Source: Amphirosellinia nigrospora (lineage: Eukaryota > Ascomycota > Sordariomycetes > Xylariales > Xylariaceae). Taken from it: DNA of 64,000 nucleotides. Shown piece by piece: positions 23,169-45,344 of this stretch. The stretch is taken from positions 930,001 to 994,000 of the forward strand of contig SCHM01000002.1 of NCBI GenBank assembly GCA_004123355.1. The letters are read 5' to 3'. Under the pieces are notes generated by a model that did not search any database, was not told where the DNA came from, and worked only from the letters and a program-made list of their open reading frames with translations. Within the stretch, counting starts at the first letter, position 1. Every line of letters starts with the position of its first letter. A program made the translations under genes and the position numbers.

Positions 23169-24050
23169 TTAATCATATGGGCTCCACTCCTCACGCTTGA
23201 ACTCAACTGGCTCAGTCTCAGTTTCAATCGACTGGCTGGGTAGGCCAAGGTGACATTGGGAGTGAAGCGGGTTTGGCAGGTGCTGATGATCACAAGCTGT
23301 GCTGGTGTAATCCTCGAAAGGATACGCAGCAGCAGTAAAGTATGAGGTGGCATGTTGCCAGGTTGGGTCGACATGGTCAGAGCAAGGAGGCCCGTGGAAA
23401 TCAAACGAGCTCTGTGAATGAAGCATCTCGCTCGCCGGACTAGACGTCATGGCCGGGGATGGAGAGAAGGTATCCGTGTCGCTGCATGGGGTGAGGAATC
23501 GGTTCTGGATCATTGTGGTGTTTGGGATGGTTATCGGCGGCACGGAGACTGGACCTGGCGTCAATGCCGGGGTCATCCTATTGTCGTAGTTGTATGGCGA
23601 GTTTTCCCGCTTGATCTTCTGCTGCGCAATTGGTTGTGGATGTGGTTGTGCTTGTTGGGGCTCAGGCGATGCGGCGGCGGGTGACTCGGGAACAGAAGTC
23701 TCTGACTTGACGCTGTCATCTTTCCTGCTTTTCGAGTCTTTCTTGGATTTGGTGACTCGTGACTTGGTCGGGCCGGCTCGGTTCCGTCGAGTTGGTTCAA
23801 GGCCGAGCATGGCAGATTTGAATCGTGAGTATCTCATTCGAGCTGCGTGGCCATTGGTGATCTCTTGCGCGAGAATCGGGTCGTGAGCGACCTGATTCCA
23901 ATCGATCTATGTCATCTATCGGTTAGGTTGATGCCAGCAAAGTGGGATGCCACCATTGGTGCAGGGAAGTCAACTCACGTCCTTGAGATTCTTCTGCTTC
24001 AATATAGCGAAGAGAAATCTCGTCATAGCATTGTCGTTGTTGGAAGACAT
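23169..24050 (-). CDS. Myb-like DNA-binding protein (fungal Myb_DNA-bind_8-type)
   Basis: Small fungal protein with an N-terminal Myb/SANT-like three-helix domain. Exon 1 (24050-23979) codes MSSNNDNAMTRFLFAILKQK and ends after NLKD. Exon 2 (23906-23169) continues IDWNQVA, then ITNGHAARMRYSRFKSAML. The 72-bp intron interrupts the domain in a typical place. The remaining 200 residues are low-complexity, with a basic patch (SRVTKSKKDSKSRKDD), a Pro/Gln stretch and a Ser/Thr/Pro-rich tail ending EFKREEWSPYD. 269 residues, intact frame. The domain assignment rests on similarity to a family widespread in Sordariomycetes; target genes are unknown. Confidence 0.85.
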
Positions 24051-26463: not shown

Positions 26464-27524
26464 ATGAACAAAAATTGGAATGATCGAGCAGATAAAGATC
26501 TCTTTTTCACTATCCTCTCCGTAAAGAACATAGGTGTCATAAGTGGCGCTGAATGGACCACGATCGGCAATCATATGCGCTCCCTGGGCTACGGCTTCAC
26601 CAATGAGGGATGTCGGTGAGTTAATTTCTATCTTGTTTATGTTTTTTTCGCTGCCTGATGCTGTTTCTTTTTTGGTTGCCGCCGAGATGATACCTACAGT
26701 CATTGCCCTCGCATCAGTAGCGTAATATGTATTTTCCGGGGTTGAAGCGTGTCTCACACCTAAAAGCCGTGAGACCAACACCAGCAGTTGCAACTAGGCA
26801 AACTACATACCTCTCTATCCTCTATATCGCTCACACACCCGTTCAACAACATACTCCTTCTATCCTTCTTCAAATCAATCAGCTTGGGATGCAAATAACT
26901 AAAGAATGTCATCGCACTCATGTTTCCTTCTACCTCTCCTGCGAGATAGGGGCTCGTAGACTTTTCCTTCTTGGCAGTGATATATCATATTATGATGCAG
27001 TGCTGACGTATGCTAGTCAACATTTTCAAGGGTTAAGAAGGGCGCAGAACAAGGCCGAGTCGAATGGCTCCAGCTCGGACGGACAGCGCAAGGGTGATCC
27101 AACTGCCAATCCTATTACACGGCGTCCCGGCCCGGGACGTGGTAGACCTAGGAAAGCAGTGCCGGCTCCTATTACTGATGGCGCTGAAGAACAAACCCCC
27201 GAGACAGTCAAACCTGCCTCGGAGACAGAGACAAGTGATCCATCAGCTCCCACTCCTCAGCCTATGCAAGCATCTACCGGGGTATTAGAACCTAGTTCAA
27301 TGGCGGTAGATGAACCACCCGCAGATCTTGAAGAGCAGCCGGCGAAACGCCAACGACTCAATGTCGACGAGGAAGAGCAACCGACGAATGATGATGAAGC
27401 AGTCCTTGCCCTAGCTGCTGATGGCATTACAGATGCCTATGGACCTCCAGAGTAAGGATAATTGTTGTTGAAAAGTACACGTGAACTATTCTGACCAAAT
27501 TTTAGCTATTACGGCGAAGCCTAA
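26464..27524 (+). CDS. SANT/Myb-like DNA-binding protein, complete array member
   Basis: Three exons: 26464-26615, 27017-27451 and 27506-27524. Exon 1 codes a half-domain with the pattern W-x-D...DLFF-x-I...EW-x-x-I...GYGFT and stops in splice phase 2. Exon 2 starts with QHFQGLRR, which completes the last helix, and then runs through an AT-hook-like GRGRPRK motif, a Pro/Thr-rich linker and AKRQRL before an acidic tail. The last exon codes YYGEA and stop. Predicted 201 residues, intact. The first intron is unusually long (401 bp) but has a CTGAC branch site directly before its acceptor. The GRGRPRK motif supports DNA binding. Closest relative in the window is the gene at 29844, which ends in the same GEA. 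Confidence 0.82.
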
Positions 27525-28185
27525 CCCTAGTCGTGGGCTGGCAGTTGATAATGTGATAACTGTTCAACAGCCTTGCAAAAGACCACCAGATATTCTCGCG
27601 CACATCGAAGAGGTTTCAGGCTACTGCTAACCTTGGATGCATGGTGGTCTCTCGCGGCCCACGTCGACCAAAGAGCGGTGTTTAGTACATTCTTTGTACC
27701 TTTAGACGCAGAAATTGCTATTAAGTAGTAACTTCGTTTTAGAGATTTTGGAATAGATGCTTGGTACTATCGGCGTTTTTAGGGGCACGACTTTGAGATA
27801 TCGTCAAGGGAGCAATGTGGCATGCTATACACAGGTTATGATAAGCGTAGCGTTAATGAAATAACGAGGCGTTGGCAATATGCTTCTTCAATTATTATAC
27901 TGAGCAACTCTGCTTCAGAACATAAAACTCAGTACAGTCTCCAGCTAAATTTTGAAGGTGGTGGGATACGACTCTCCTACGCACGTACGTACGTAGCAGC
28001 AAGTACGCTAAATCGGTTTTCTTCAGCCACTTGGCTATTACCTAGGTAGTTGCATCACCTACCTTTTTTCTTTTTCCTTCCTGTCAACCCATTTCATATC
28101 TCGGCCACCACGCACCGAACTTATCACTCTCTCTTCACGATCACTACTCATAACCAGCCTCGTTCACAATTCACACACCTACAAC
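27525..28185. other. Spacer between SANT-like modules
   Basis: No gene seen up to the CT-rich leader (about 28060-28185) of the next module. An ACGTACGTACGT run lies near 27982. Confidence 0.55.
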
Positions 28186-28342
28186 ATGGCAGTCGGAAAG
28201 GGAAGTAAATGGACCGGAGACACTTATGAAGCTTTGGCAGTCGCTCTATGGCGTATGCACGGCACCGTCAAGCCAGATCAGCAACAAGCTGTTGTCGAGG
28301 ACATGAAGGAGAGCGGGTTTCCCATTTCATGGAAGGTATTCG
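28186..28342 (+). CDS. SANT-like half-domain exon A (no second exon found)
   Basis: A 52-codon module beginning ATGGCAGTC after a pyrimidine-rich leader. It codes KWTGDTYEALAVALWRM and ends at ESGFPISWKVF, collinear with exon 1 of the complete relatives at 26464 and 29844. A good donor (GGTAAGC) follows. As read, the splice phase is 1, unlike its phase-2 relatives. One extra G in the GG pair would make it 158 bases in phase 2, exactly like modules C and D. No downstream QHLQKL-type exon is found before the next module. The frame stays open to 28872 and runs into module B, probably by chance. It could be an alternative first exon, a decayed paralogue or a microprotein gene. Confidence 0.55.
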
Positions 28343-28689
28343 GTAAGCTACAGTTTCTGGTTATCTGTTCTATCCTAGTGGGCGACGCGTGCATATCCGA
28401 GTTGATGACTTGCTTCCTTCCGATTTGCTTGTTGCGCCAGCAAGTGCCAACTCCCATCAATCTCGGTTTATGGTACTTAACGAGGTATCTATCTACCTCA
28501 CAACCCTACCTACTATATCACCATACCCACCCTTGGTACTGCACCAACTCTGCCTACTTCGCCCAATCTACCCACCTCACCAACTTCACCAACTTCACCA
28601 ACTTCATTCAGCCTTCTCGACGCTTTACCTACATTCTCATAGCAACATTCCCACCTCGTAATACCTATCATCTTACCAATACGATCACA

Positions 28690-28868
28690 ATGGCCCCGCC
28701 TACCACTGCTGCCAAGCCTGTCAAGAAATGGGATGATGCCATGGAGGCCCATCTCTTTTTCTCCATCTACAACACCGTGGATATCTCCTTCACCCCCGAT
28801 GACAAGGCTGCTATTGAGGCCATGATGAAGAACAACTTCAATCATGACGTCAACTGGAATGGAATTCG
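28690..28868 (+). CDS. SANT-like half-domain exon B (no second exon found)
   Basis: A module of 59 codons plus two bases with the start context CACAATGG. It codes KKWDDAMEAHLFFSIYNTV and then a second helix region ending DVNWNGI, with donor GTAGGT in phase 2. The nearest usable acceptor (CCCAG, about 28925) would add only two residues before a stop. Joining to the acceptor at 30134 would keep the frame and restore a QHLQKL helix. The sequence is related to modules A, C and D but clearly diverged, so this is not a recent duplication. Confidence 0.6.
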
Positions 28869-29146
28869 GTAGGTCGTGAACTTGTGCAAACCAACTTGTT
28901 GACTTGACTCTTGCCATACGCCCAGCTCAAACTAGGTTCCTTCCCTACCTTCCTTCTTATCCACCTGCAACTTGTTCCACCTTTTTCTCTTCAAGGCCTT
29001 ACTACGTTTTCGTCAATCCTCTACAACACACTCTCCTACACCAGGTCACCACCTACATTTACTACACACATTTCACTCATCTATTTATTCTTCTGTCTTC
29101 TCTATCCATTATTTCCACTCTGCATTACTACTTCAGCCCTCTCATC

Positions 29147-29304
29147 ATGTCTTCCTCTCGTACTCCCATGAAGTGGGACCCGAAAGTCCACGAAGATATC
29201 TTGGTGGCCATCAACGACGTCGCCAAACTTTCTCGCGACGACTGGCAGCACGTCATCCAAGCCCTTCATGGAATGGGATATACCTTCACCGAATCGGCCC
29301 TCAA
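29147..29304 (+). CDS. SANT-like half-domain exon C (no second exon found)
   Basis: 158 bases, coding MKWDPKVHEDILVAINDV and then DDWQHVIQALHGMGYTFTES, ending in phase 2 at a GTAGGT donor. Length, phase and motif spacing equal module D. It is preceded by about 200 bases of CT-rich sequence. No exon that could complete the domain is found between 29305 and 29843. Joined to the acceptor at 30134 it would give an in-frame SANT-like protein. Confidence 0.6.
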
Positions 29305-29843
29305 GTAGGTTTAGTTCGCCGCCTCGCGAGTTGTGCCCGCGTCCTCTATTACACTCCTTGACGAATCCAGCCCTCGAGATCTTCTACTGCACTCTCCCCT
29401 ACTTTTTCCTTTTTTTCGGCTCATTCTGTTTCCCACTTTCGTTATTTCATTGTTATTTCACCGACCTTGGGCTTTTTTCAACACCCACTGAGAGTTATAT
29501 CCTATGGCTCTTACCGCGCGGATGCTGGGGGCAACCCTACGATTCCTCTACTGCACTCCCTTTTGATTCCAGGTTGCCTATCCTATTGCCTACTCTACTA
29601 TCAGTGAGATGGCTGATATGGCAAGTTAGCATGCGCCCCTCCTTCCACTATCCTATTACCATAGTTCCCACCGCTCAACATCCTCTACCTCTTAGCACTT
29701 CACCTTTATAACCAGCCCACTTCCACTTCTTCCCTTTTCTCTTCATCATCCATCAGCCATTCTTCGAGACCAAGATTTTTTCTACTCGCACTATCGCTCT
29801 TCTACCTTTTCGTCTTCATTACCTATCACCACCGCATATCATC
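29305..29843. other. CT-rich spacer between modules C and D
   Basis: Pyrimidine-rich sequence, probably the leader/promoter of module D. I looked for a QHLQKL-type exon for module C here and found none. Confidence 0.55.
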
Positions 29844-30467
29844 ATGTCGACCAATGCAGCCGGACGTACTATCTGGAACGACAAGACTCGATCCGATTTG
29901 CTTCAAGCGATCTTCGATGTCGCCCCTCCTGCCCAGCACTGGGAGGCTATCTCCGTCAAGCTCGAGGAGAAAGGCTATACTTATGGCTATAGCGCTGCTC
30001 TGTAATAACACCCTATCGCCGTGACTCATGTCAATTACTACTGATGCGTGTTGCCTTGTTAACTTCACACAGCTAGACTTTCTTTACATGACCAATTTGA
30101 TCTAGGCAGGGTTGCTAATTTTATTCTCTATAGACAGCATCTTCAGAAACTCAAGAAGAAGGACGATGCCCCGGCTACTCCCAAGAAGCCTGCCAAGGCT
30201 GCCGCTGGAGTCAAGAAGACTTCTACCCCTGGTTCGAAGACTCCCGGTTCTGGCCGCAAGCGCAACAAGCTGCAGATCGAGGTCGACGACGACGAAGATG
30301 AGGACAAGGTCGCCGTGAAGAAACTCAAGTTCGAGTAAGTCCATCATGCGTTTACCTCACATCTAGTCCCTGTATGGGTAACTAAGTATTTATGTAGAAG
30401 CCAAGCTCCCGACTTGAGCCAGTATGACGAGGCGGTGCCGGACTCTTCCTTTGACGGCGAGGCCTAA
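29844..30467 (+). CDS. SANT/Myb-like DNA-binding protein, complete array member D
   Basis: Three exons: 29844-30001, 30134-30334 and 30398-30467, giving 142 residues with an intact frame. Exon 1 has the half-domain TIWNDKTRSDLLQAIFDV and HWEAISVKLEEKGYTYGYSA. Exon 2 starts with QHLQKLKKKDD, which completes the last helix, followed by a Lys/Ala/Pro-rich H1-like linker and the motif GRKRNKLQIEVDDDEDED. The last exon codes an acidic tail ending DGEA. The first intron has an alternative acceptor near 30073 that would cause an immediate stop. The basic linker suits nuclear chromatin binding. It is the only member of the 28-30 kb cluster with all exons. Confidence 0.82.
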
Positions 30468-31510: not shown

Positions 31511-33412
31511 ATGAGACTTATAAATACTGCTACCCTGGATTTAGAGGATCATTTGGACACAACCCCTCGTTATGCTATTTTATCGCACACATGGGGACGT
31601 ACAGAGGTGACCTTACAAGAATGGTCCGAATGGCTTAAGCTTCCAAGAAGAAGTCACCTTCATTCATTATTCACCCAACTAGAAAATGAAGATCCCGTAC
31701 ATCGTAATGCTCGAGAAGAGCATCTGTTCGAAGACAAATGGCTTTTTTTGAAACCACCAGAGACAATCGGCTACTGGAAGATTCTCAAAGCTTGCCTAGA
31801 GGCCAGGAAGGATGGCTTGGATTATCTCTGGGTAGACACCAACTGTATTGATAAAACTAGCAGCGCCGAGCTTTCCGAGGCTATCAATTCGATGTACGTT
31901 TGGTACCGCAATTCTGCCATTTGCTATGCATATCTGTCCGATGTACTATTCTCGGACCCGGTCAACCCTACGACTTGCACGGGGGCTGAGAAGCCTACGG
32001 TCAATCTCCAAGGACGCTCGCTCGATTTATTTCGGCGAGCCGATGGTTTCGTCGCGGTGGACACTTCAGGAGTTATTGGCGCCGAGACAGTGCGCTTCTA
32101 TTCCCGCAACTGGACCCCTATTGGCACCAAGAAGGACATGGCGTCGCTCTTGGCAGAGGTCACAAGAGTAGACAAGAGATATTTGCTATATGCAGAAGAT
32201 ATCCGAAGCGCCAGTATAGCGCAGCGTATGGCGGCGGTGGCAGACCGCACGACTACGAGATCTGAGGATATCGCCTACTGCCTGCTCGGGCTATTCAATG
32301 TGAACATGCCGCTGCTCTACGGCGAGGGGCCTATGCATTCGTGCGGCTACAGGAGGAAATCATGAAGGTTTCAGACGACCACTCGATATTTGCGTGGACA
32401 TGGATTGTCGGCTGAATGGTAAGAAACTGCTGAAGACAGTTGCTGCACGCCGGGGCCACCTCAGTCTCGACTACAAGCCCAACTTTCCTGCTAACCGCCT
32501 CGATGCTCTTCTCCGTAACCGTATGAGGAGAGACATAGCGCGACCTACACTCCTAGCACTTGATCCAGTATGCTTCTTCGATTCCAGTGCTGTTCCAATA
32601 CTCAAGCCATCTAAGAGCCTCGGAATCTTTACTATGTCGAACGTGGGCCTTTCGATATCACTGCCGATTTTTACTCACCCTTCCATGAAGCTGTTCTTTG
32701 GTGTAATACACGACAAGTACAATCCTGAAAATGATACCAGAACGATAATAATGATACCTCTAACCCAGCATTATCAATACCAGGACCGCTGGACACGAAC
32801 ATCATTCCCAATCGCGCCCGTTACCGTTCTGCTCCGAAGTCGAAGTAGTACAGTACCCAGGTTAAAGACGATACAGATATGTAGAGATACACAGCACGTA
32901 TCATTCTATTTCGATGCTTTTGGCGGGACGTCACATCGGTTCGGCTTCTGGCTGCTTTTCCCGCAGGTTCAGGAAACGCGGAATACGCTGTTCCACCTTG
33001 TTGATGGATGTGTACTAGGCAACGGGGTCTACAATGATCACGGCCTATTTTTGGATCCCGATAGTAGATGGCAGAGTCAGATCATTGGCGGGTTATTGGC
33101 TTTCCATGTTGAGACACGGACGCAAGACACGTGGCCCTGGTGGCACGATGCAGTCATTATCCTACTGCTGGCCCTGGAAGTGAAGAAGAAGCCCGATGGC
33201 GACTTCGAGAAAACATCTTGTCACTGTAGGATATTAGTCCGGCCCGAGCCCCTGTCGACGCGCCACAGCTTCTGGAAGGGTTCGCGGCATATTTGCAGAA
33301 ACACCCTGACGGCGGTGGGCAGTCGGCGTACGTATGCGTTGACGACTTCAAGAAACGATACAAGAACCCTCGTCCCTTGGATATAGAGAACTCACTCTCC
33401 ACGCCTCAGTAG
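31511..33412 (+). CDS. HET-domain protein (heterokaryon incompatibility), frame broken
   Basis: HET-domain proteins trigger the cell-death reaction after fusion of incompatible hyphae. Visible family motifs: YAILSHTWG near the N-terminus, LDYLWVDTNCIDK, INSMYVWYRNSAICYAYLSDV, then WTLQELLAPR (in a shifted frame), and SEDIAYCLLGLFNVNMPLLYGEG. After the domain come QEEIMK, DDHSIFAWTW and a C-terminal region typical of small HET proteins. At least five indels are needed: three within about 32040-32090, one G lost near 32332 and one near 33215. Possible end at 33412. The gene could be a real pseudogene, since HET genes often decay, but the breaks match the indel pattern of the essential genes nearby. 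It lies immediately upstream of a Het-C-like gene in the same orientation. Confidence 0.82.
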
Positions 33413-34267
33413 AGTGCCTCAACGATGAGCCCTTGAGTCATTCGTCGCGGTCGGAAATCACTTTGACGGAGTTGAAGCTATGGCACTCTGAAAGGCGAGT
33501 TAAGGGTTTCAAAAAATTTGCCCGAAGCTTAACGCTCTGAAATCCGGCTGTCATTCCCATTCTGTGTCCTTCCTGCTAGCTAGAGGCATTGACCATCATC
33601 ATCTCGTGCTATCTCCTTATGGAATCACTAAGACATGTTGCACGTGGAGTGAAAGACGATGTGAATGGTGCGAATGCTGAGACATATCTTATGTTAGAAA
33701 TCTATGCGCATCCACACGCCACTCATCGAGCTTCAGCAGAGCTAGACTCCAACGTCACTTAACTGATGTTAGGGACACATTGTCCCGATGCTACATGAGA
33801 ATTCATTTCGGGGTATTGAACAATAATACACTAAAAGCTTATGAAGAAGTGTTTTATATGAGTTTAACGTTAATGACGCTCATCTGTGGTGATTGTGAGG
33901 GCACGAGCTGGCTTGTGGTGGTCTCTGCCTCGGCAACATTGCCTAGTGGGCAGCCCCGCCCCGTAAAACCGCCTAGCTTTAGCACGAACGACAGCGGAAT
34001 GATCGCTCCCCATGACGTAATGATGTTCCGCTACAACCATCGCAACCTACCTGAGCACAAATGTCGCTAGACGTTACCATCAGCTGGGTCTTGCTTAACG
34101 CTGAACGGTGAGCTACCTGGATACTGTTCATACATAATACCTGTGTGAAGGGTATCTTGTTTGCGTTGCGTGCAAGCGACTTCCAGTTTCTCTGGTCGAC
34201 CAGTAGTGGCCACGTCGCTAGCCTGAGATTTCGAGCTCCCCAAAAGCAAGCAGACTACGAAGTTACA
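33413..34267. other. Spacer between HET and Het-C-like genes
   Basis: 855 bp without a recognised gene, probably the promoter of the Het-C-like gene. Small frames only. Confidence 0.55.
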
Positions 34268-36498
34268 ATGATCTCCCGTCCTGTGCTGCTGTTATGCCTC
34301 ATTCTATGTCTGCTAATCCTTGTCCCCCAGGCATCTGCCTTCGGTGCCGGTGAGGTGCCCATTGGCAGCGAATTCAAAGGATATGTGTGGCGTCACGGCG
34401 ACATAGGCGAAGTCCTGCAGTTCTTGCCTTCCAGCTTCATCACGAATCACAGATTCACACAGTTGGAGCGCAAGCAGATCTACTTTGGCAATTGGCTGCG
34501 CGATTTCTCCCAGGTCATCGACACCACTCTTCTGGAAAATGTGGACGAGTCTATTCTGCGTGCCATCGTGGCTGTCATGGGCTTCTTGGAGTTCGGTTTC
34601 GCGACCGATGAGTTCGATGTAACACGAGAACGCCTTGGTTGCTATAGGCACATCGAACACATTGATAACCCCGCCGGCTATGTGGATGATGCCAAGAAAG
34701 TGGATGAGCGTCTGAGAGGCCCCGTGAATCCAGCAGAACTGGAGTTTGATCCTAAAACGGGCATGAAAAACTACATCGCCAATTCTGGACAAGGATGGGA
34801 GACCTCGGCAGATTATGTTCGCGAGCAACTCAGCCAGTCCATCGAGTCGGGAAGGGTCAAAGGAGATTCTGGTGCAAAGAAGGAAAGTTACATCCATCTC
34901 GGGGCAGCTTTGCATACTCTCGAAGATTTCGCCGCTCATAGCAACTTTGTTGAGCTCTGTTTGCACGAACTGGGGGAAGAGCAGGTGTTCCCTTTCGTGG
35001 GGGATGCCTGCAGAATCGAAGTCCCACGCCGGGTGTGGAAACATAAACGTGTAGCGCCTCTTGTGACGGGAACCTTCGGCATGTTAGACATATTCCATTG
35101 TGAGTACTTCTTGGTGTTCTTTCTCTTACGGCATTGGCAACATTTAATGTATAACGTTTCCTTATTATGCTATACTTCCAGCCTTGGAATTTCCTATTTA
35201 TGGGGTGTATTGTAGATCCGTTGTATATACTAGAAACTAATGTTGAGTATGATAGCCCTTCTCGGAGAAGCAGATGACATGGCAATCCTGCAGTCTAAGG
35301 GTTCTCTAGGAGAATTAGAAAAGAAATTAGGGTATGGTGGCATGGCATTCGATCAGCTATATGAACTCATTAAGAGTGGTATAGAAATTATTAGCCAAGT
35401 CGGAACTGGCGATAACCCATTACTACAGCAGCTTGAAACGGTGGGATTGATTTTTAATAAAGCGAAGGAGAATACGCCTGGTAAGCGACCCTTCGAAACC
35501 ACGTTTATTCGCACCGAAAATGAAGAAATTAACATGTTTCATTAGCCAACAATGACACAAACTCGACAAACCCTAGCGTATTTTGGCAGGCTATCGAACC
35601 CATTTTCTATTTCCATGATCGGATGTCAAAATGGATGCAGGAGAGCGCTCAAGAATCAGGAGAGATGGGGCTGGGCGAGTCAAGAAGTCAACTCGGGGAG
35701 GAGACTAATCAACTTGTCTTTCAACTTCTTGCTGTTGTAATCGAGTCGGCGGTCAAGGAACTTCGAAATGCTGTCAAGGCGGCGAAAGAGAAAGTGGATG
35801 AAGAAGCAGCCAAATCTACGGCAGCCGAAGTATACCAAGATGGATCATCTGCATCCGATCCATCGCATTCCGATTTATCCAAGGATCATTTCAGCAATGT
35901 TCTCAACCAAGTTGCCGGTCTCGTCGGAACAGTAATAACAAATTGGACGACTCAGCAGGTTGTGAGATGTTGGGATGATCCGACGTTGGATGCCAACAGA
36001 ACCATCGACGAGATTCTTACAATCTTTCATCATCCCGCCTTTCCGAGGAAGAAGACGATCATACAACTGTACATGTTCGAGGAAGTTAAAAAATGGTGGG
36101 AGCGTACATCAGCCGAGGAGAAAGACCGCCTGCGCCATCAGCTCACGCGTGAAAGTGTTCAGGAGCGCGGACACGAGAATCACGAGTTGACTCTGAAGGA
36201 CCTCACCACAACCCAAAAAGGCGCCGCCGAGTTCCCTGGCTCAAGACCTGATGTGGTGGCACCTCCGAAAAAGGTGTCGTTTCCATTGGCGTGGGCGATT
36301 AATGAAGCGGGGAGGGACACTAAACGATTGCTGATGTTTATACGAAGGGGAATTCGAGATCCTATCGGGGCTGTGGGTGAGGTCTTGTATAATGCGGGCA
36401 ACTTGGCGTACAGCTCTGGCCAGTTGGCCTTCAACATGGTTGGGCGGTTAACATATAGGGTCACTGGTCTGCCTTGGGGTTCAAGGGCTTCGGGCTGA
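34268..36498 (+). CDS. Het-C-like protein (heterokaryon incompatibility protein C family)
   Basis: Three exons: 34268-35099, 35256-35480 and 35546-36498, giving 669 residues with an intact frame. The first 24 residues form a signal peptide (hydrophobic core LLLCLILCLLIL, cleavage likely after ASA). The Het-C domain shows YVWRHGDIGEVLQ, QIYFGNWLRDFSQ, GFATDEFDVTRERLG, EHIDNPAGY, TGMKNYIAN, LGAALHTLEDFAAHSNFVEL and VAPLVTGTFGMLDIFHS. The rest is helical. Neurospora HET-C ends in glycine-rich repeats, which are absent here, so this is a family member rather than a proven functional counterpart. In Neurospora het-c works with the adjacent HET-domain gene pin-c. The HET gene directly upstream suggests a similar pair. 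Likely secreted or cell-surface associated. Confidence 0.9.
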
Positions 36499-44435: not shown

Positions 44436-45344
44436 ATGGCTCCTGGTCTTGATACCGATAGTCAATTCCGCTTCCTCATCTCTTGCATTCGCCATTCCAC
44501 TGCGGGCAAGGTAAGCTTCAAACCCGGAGCATCGTCACCCTCTACTAGGTCTTCGCTATGATCAACATGCTAATTCGCACAGGTGGACTTTGATGAAGTC
44601 CGCAAGGAATGCGACATCGTCACCAAGGGCGCTGCGTAAGTTCCATTTCTCTACTTCCCATCTCGATACCACATCGGAATCCAAGATTGACATTCTAATC
44701 CTGCATAGAGCCAAGCGATATGAGCGTCTCATGAAAGCTCACGGTATCGCCACTGGCGCCGCTGCCAATGCCGTCAAGACTGAAGGCAAGGATGGCAACG
44801 AAGCCAAGAAGCCCAAGACTCGTGCCACCAAGAAGCGCAAGCTTGAAGAGGTCGACGAAGATGAGGATGACATTGATGAACCTGTCAAGTCGGAGCCGAA
44901 AATCAAAGGTGAAGTCAAATTCGAAGATGCAATCGTGAAACCTGAATGCTCGAATGATGACATGCCGAATGCCACGCCACTGCACCGCCCATCTTCCCAA
45001 TCCCAAGCCGCATCATCTTCCACCAACAACACCCAATCGATGATGACGACGATGAAGTCCTCTTCGTGTCAGCGACCGAGAAGCGAAGTATCCCCAACAC
45101 GCAGAGCTACAGCGACGACCATCGTGCATCCCAAACGCATCCGCCAGTGCCGGTTATGAGTGGTATCCAACCTGTTGATTATGCAGCTAACATGAGTTTC
45201 CCTCAGCAGCTCAACCCGCCGAACCCGTCGCAGCTTCCGCAGATGGCGCCGACGATGGCGACGATGGATCCATCTAATTCATTCTCCTACGGCTTCTCGC
45301 CTACGACCTGGGTCATTCCACATGGCAGTCATGGTTACCTTTAG
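44436..45344 (+). CDS. Myb-like DNA-binding protein (second Myb_DNA-bind_8-type gene)
   Basis: Exon 1 (44436-44510) codes LDTDSQFRFLISCIRHS, exon 2 (44583-44635) VDFDEVRKECDIVTKGAA, and exon 3 (44709-45344) AKRYERLMKAHG, together the three helices of a fungal Myb-like domain. Basic (TRATKKRKLEEV) and acidic linkers and a Pro/Gln-rich tail follow. A C is missing near 45034 (an ACCCC run read as ACCC). Restoring it joins the tail IDDDDEVLFVS...HGSHGYL and gives 254 residues. The intron positions (72 and 73 bp) fall between the helices. It is more similar to the gene at 23.2-24.1 kb than to the SANT-like array. Confidence 0.85.

Follow-up and report, generated by a model that had tools for sequence, protein, structure and literature searches.

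In mammalian UGT1A, tandem first exons with promoters of their own each encode half of the protein and are spliced, as has been proven, to common exons that follow the last copy. In the clustered protocadherins, a system known only from animals in which splicing is likewise proven, variable first exons with their own promoters are joined to constant exons. Within the window, the 64-kb stretch of DNA analysed here from a genome assembly of 11 contigs and 48.1 Mb, is a row of short exons encoding the first half of a SANT-like domain. The gene content, which includes a HET domain and het-C, and the short introns mark the source as a filamentous ascomycete. As in UGT1A, tandem half-protein first exons with their own leaders lie upstream of one downstream body, and the arrangement of variable first exons, each with a putative promoter, ahead of constant exons recalls the protocadherins, whose exons and arrays are much larger. 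The differences from UGT1A are that here we infer the splicing, that the splice phase is common to modules B, C and D only, that the variable half is a domain of DNA-binding type, and that the genome is a compact fungal one. No title in a literature search described such a first-exon array.

Four modules reported in the initial annotation are confirmed on the plus strand: A (28186–28342, 157 bases), B (28690–28868, 179 bases), C (29147–29304, 158 bases) and exon 1 of D (29844–30001, 158 bases). Each begins with an ATG after a G-poor, CT-rich leader of its own, holds an open frame through the half-domain and ends at a GT donor. Phase 2 at the ends of B, C (both GTAGGT) and D (GTAATA) also holds, and A ends in phase 1 (GTAAGC). 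The D donor is the least consensus-like of the five module donors, and the stops that close the open reading frames of B, C and D are the phase-2 GTAA or GTAG donors read through. C and D are indeed equally long, but this carries no weight as evidence, because their alignment contains offsetting gaps.

Overlooked initially was a fifth module, here called M0, located 1.6 kb upstream of A on the same strand. Its exon 1 (26464–26615) encodes the SANT-like half-domain and ends at the phase-2 donor GTGAGT, exon 2 (27017–27451) completes the domain with QHFQGLRRAQ, and exon 3 (27506–27524) ends with DYYGEA and a stop. As annotated, a second exon of D from 30134 (30134–30334) restores QHLQKLKKK in frame; it continues into a Lys/Ala/Pro-rich basic tail and an acidic stretch and is the candidate shared body. 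A third D exon (30398–30467), likewise absent from the first reading, follows the phase-2 donor GTAAGT and ends with DSSFDGEA and a stop.

M0 and D are thus complete three-exon genes and follow a common plan. Helices 1 and 2 come from exon 1, helix 3 is interrupted by a phase-2 intron, exon 2 opens with QHFQGLRR or QHLQKLKK and then runs into a long charged tail, the second intron is again in phase 2, and the last exon ends in GEA. The introns measure 401 and 54 bases in M0 and 132 and 63 bases in D, and the two proteins are 29% identical over the domain. Since both genes have a phase-2 intron at this place, the split of the domain and its phase are ancestral to this gene plan. Exon 2 of M0 contains GRGRPRK and PAKRQR, which we take to be AT-hook-like and nuclear-localization-signal-like motifs, respectively. 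The products of M0 and D are probably small nuclear DNA-binding proteins, the nuclear role being one that we infer. The unusually long first intron of M0 includes about 100 bases poor in G and rich in C and T (26791–26890), which resemble a short leader and are followed by ATGs.

Membership of the module family was assessed by scoring each module with a profile built from the other four and comparing the result with 2,000 residue shuffles. The real score was reached by none of the shuffles for M0, C and D, by 1 for B and by 30 for A, so that A is the weakest and least certain member. The open frames by themselves are weak evidence, the probability of such a frame under dinucleotide shuffling being 0.13 for A, 0.06 for B, 0.23 for C and 0.08 for D. 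Both the weak fit of A and the modest improbability of the frames are what would be expected if A, B and C were remnants, now decaying, of tandem duplications limited to the leader and first exon, perhaps transcribed but without function, and the apparent lack of second exons agrees with such an origin. The modules are, however, only 13–35% identical to D and yet retain the frame, the donor and the hydrophobic pattern, and the profile scores of B and C lie far above those of the shuffles; we therefore regard decay as unlikely.

The tryptophan of helix 2 seen in C, D and M0 is absent from A and B, which instead carry a tryptophan where helix 3 begins (ISWKVF and VNWNGI). This common placement suggests that A and B are a sister pair. 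The two also lie within a single open frame of 286 codons (28012–28869), the linker of which stays open in 2.3% of dinucleotide shuffles. One could accordingly imagine a single, longer protein of repeated half-domains, built from A and B with or without C, given that the frame of A runs on through the leader into B and that 28642 offers an in-frame acceptor from A into B, and 29136 one from B into C. Yet the A–B linker reads as a translated CT-rich leader, no in-frame C-to-D acceptor occurs among the top-scoring candidates listed, and every module has an ATG beside its own leader, all of which makes a repeat protein very improbable.

With the known helix-3 starts of D and M0 as the yardstick, a search of all AG acceptors from each donor to the next module found no helix-3-like exon after A, B or C, the best candidates being GAG or AAG sites or giving CT-rich translations. 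In a frame-free search, the best helix-3 scores after A, B and C were reached by 56, 119 and 199 of 200 shuffles; this search has low power, as the true D and M0 pair was itself reached by 11 and 15 of 200. Of the claim that only D has a second exon, the part concerning A, B and C agrees with these low-power searches, but M0 has exons 2 and 3 of its own. A join to the acceptor at 30134 yields a complete domain in frame from B (NWNGIR-QHLQKL) and from C (ESALK-QHLQKL), while A, ending in phase 1, shifts the frame.

We tentatively favour the reading in which the D gene uses B and C as alternative first exons, as leader, frame and donor have been kept in both while no domain-like continuation of its own was found for either. 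Transcription would begin at any one of the B, C and D leaders, the phase-2 donor of the chosen module would be joined to the 30134 acceptor, and a single helix-3 end with its basic tail would thereby receive different first and second helices. The proposal of alternative first exons on a shared body is supported in part: for B and C by their separate leaders, kept donors and matching frames, but not for A, which falls outside the sharing scheme and is probably either a decaying copy or a short gene by itself. The phase-2 match, present in B, C and D as proposed, is no independent evidence of sharing: phase 2 being ancestral to the gene plan, the agreement is inherited.

Intron lengths are also unfavourable. 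Sharing would need introns of 1,265 bases from B and 829 bases from C, whereas constitutive fungal introns have a mean of 93 bases and skipped exons make up 3% of fungal alternative splicing events, according to PMC3925392. The sharing reading is weakened accordingly, since the introns it needs far exceed this mean and short local ones are on offer: GT–AG introns are possible of 98 bases after A, 57 or 67 bases after B and 66 bases after C, those of B and C with TTGAC branch-like sites. M0, which too has a long first intron with an inner CT-rich stretch, is counted in favour of sharing.

Nearly as likely as the shared body is that A, B and C each form a short gene of their own. They would be truncated paralogues, spliced locally or not at all, encoding half-domain micro-proteins of about 53–95 residues that may hinder D or M0 or associate with other partners. 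Each of the three has its own leader and open frame, short local introns are at hand, fungal splicing favours short introns (PMC3925392), and the body of D is unusable by A. Local splicing, however, would extend neither B nor C with anything like a domain: B would stop after three further codons, and the tail acquired by C would be 40 residues translated from CT-rich sequence. A half-domain without most of helix 3 would be unlikely to bind DNA, and for copies that go unspliced there is no reason for the donor to be preserved.

The spacing of the modules bears on both the shared body and the separate genes. The distance from the donor to the next leader is 108 bases after A, 52 bases after B (about 80 when taken from 50-base bins) and 316 bases after C. 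The roughly 52–80 bases between the B donor and the C leader leave little room for a 3′ end belonging to B, which speaks against separate genes, whereas the 316 bases between the C donor and the D leader would be enough for a short 3′ end and are counted against sharing. The G content after the donors is 13% for A, 9% for B and 14% for C, compared with 20–28% in the sequence presumed to flank D, M0 or six other genes on the 3′ side, a range in which some ends are ends of open reading frames only and from which the gene at 44.4 kb was left out. Terminator-like motifs were sparse both after A–C and at the gene ends.

The leaders of B (28451–28689), C (28921–29146, starting about 52 bases past the B donor) and D (29621–29843), all on the plus strand, were described by a signature of 150-base windows in which G does not exceed 8% and C+T is 62% or more, cut-offs that were set after inspection of the data. 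In the 64 kb, 40 of 6,385 windows met this signature on the plus strand and none on the minus strand, and they merge into four places, namely the leaders of B, C and D and that of a Myb_DNA-bind_8 gene at 44.4 kb; the leader of A is borderline, narrowly outside the cut-offs. By this sequence signature, then, each of the putative first exons B, C and D has a leader of its own, as would be expected of a first-exon array. The same signature occurs in the sense orientation no more than about 350 bases upstream of 5 of the 11 histone-fold places in the genome (from 13 matches, two pairs of which are exons of one gene), against a background of 4 places in 175,218 strand-bases from 29 other loci. With the signature also present upstream of histone-fold genes, B and C have the look of genuine starts of transcription. 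Common ancestry of the leaders was not detected by alignment, with none of 10 pairs standing out (lowest, 21 of 200 shuffles).

Were B and C to feed the D body, one gene would yield several DNA-binding-type proteins through the choice of promoter, with the domain split within its third helix, in a fungus whose introns are short and whose exons are seldom skipped. That the locus diversifies a DNA-binding-type domain in the manner of UGT1A, by an array beside a het-C/HET locus in a compact fungal genome, is a possibility that we place short of even. It would be a small first-exon array outside animals, open to testing, and annotation would then be mistaken in omitting such loci or in rendering them as runs of tiny genes. 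Should B and C not feed the body, the locus would still pose a genuine though smaller puzzle, that of half-domain genes whose leaders are intact.

The family to which the domain belongs was sought in several ways. The modules gave nothing over the cut-off in Pfam, and weak matches to PriCT_2, Nodulin_C, PDZ, FANCI and CdiA were judged to be due to chance. Below the cut-off were Myb_DNA-bind_4 on M0 (E of 0.095–0.12) and Myb_DNA-bind_3 on C joined to D exon 2 (E of 0.12). A structure model of D exon 1, made from the five modules, has two helices (13–26 and 33–42; mean pLDDT of 68). The same C exon with D exon 2 matches chains of the plant GARP/PHR1 Myb proteins with W and HLQK in register (E of 0.017); the match is not significant, however, and the D protein finds no Myb chain (best E of 0.52).

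Flanking the array are two Myb_DNA-bind_8 genes that score over the cut-off (23172–24050 on the minus strand and 44436–45160 on the plus strand), the only such places found in the genome, with two further sub-threshold matches on C5. The gene at 44.4 kb resembles the array in having a similar leader and a phase-2 intron in the third helix, but modules A–D, spliced M0 and spliced D gave no match to Myb_DNA-bind_8 (PF22980) up to an E of 10. A profile comparison of the modules with PF22980 (E of 0.011–0.046 over 26 columns, probability of 1–4%) does not establish kinship.

Relatives of the array were seen only in this window, at the sensitivity of the searches used. A genome protein search with C as the query missed D, and one with a consensus query recovered C, D and M0 but missed A and B, so that family members elsewhere in the genome are possible. 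The strict helix-3 acceptor pattern (an acceptor with the QH[LF]Q motif), searched genome-wide, occurs in two places, M0 and D, versus one in the reversed control. A loose form gave 50 matches versus 28 in the reversed control; 30 were made into loci, one of which is D, and no modules were found at the other 29 (best E of 0.95).

The region from 24 to 34 kb contains no direct or inverted repeats of at least 30 bases, and an Rfam search gave no match. The array, between its two Myb_DNA-bind_8 genes, lies near het-C. Located downstream is a HET-domain reading frame (31511–32365, PF06985) that looks broken, its continuation being in another frame, and shortly after it is the het-C gene (34112–36495, PF07217). 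Together these span 31511–36495, an adjacency that recalls the het-c/pin-c pair of Neurospora. Copies of histone-fold genes are present at C4:913–919 kb, a short way upstream of the window, and as two near-identical sets on C9, which suggests a segmental duplication.
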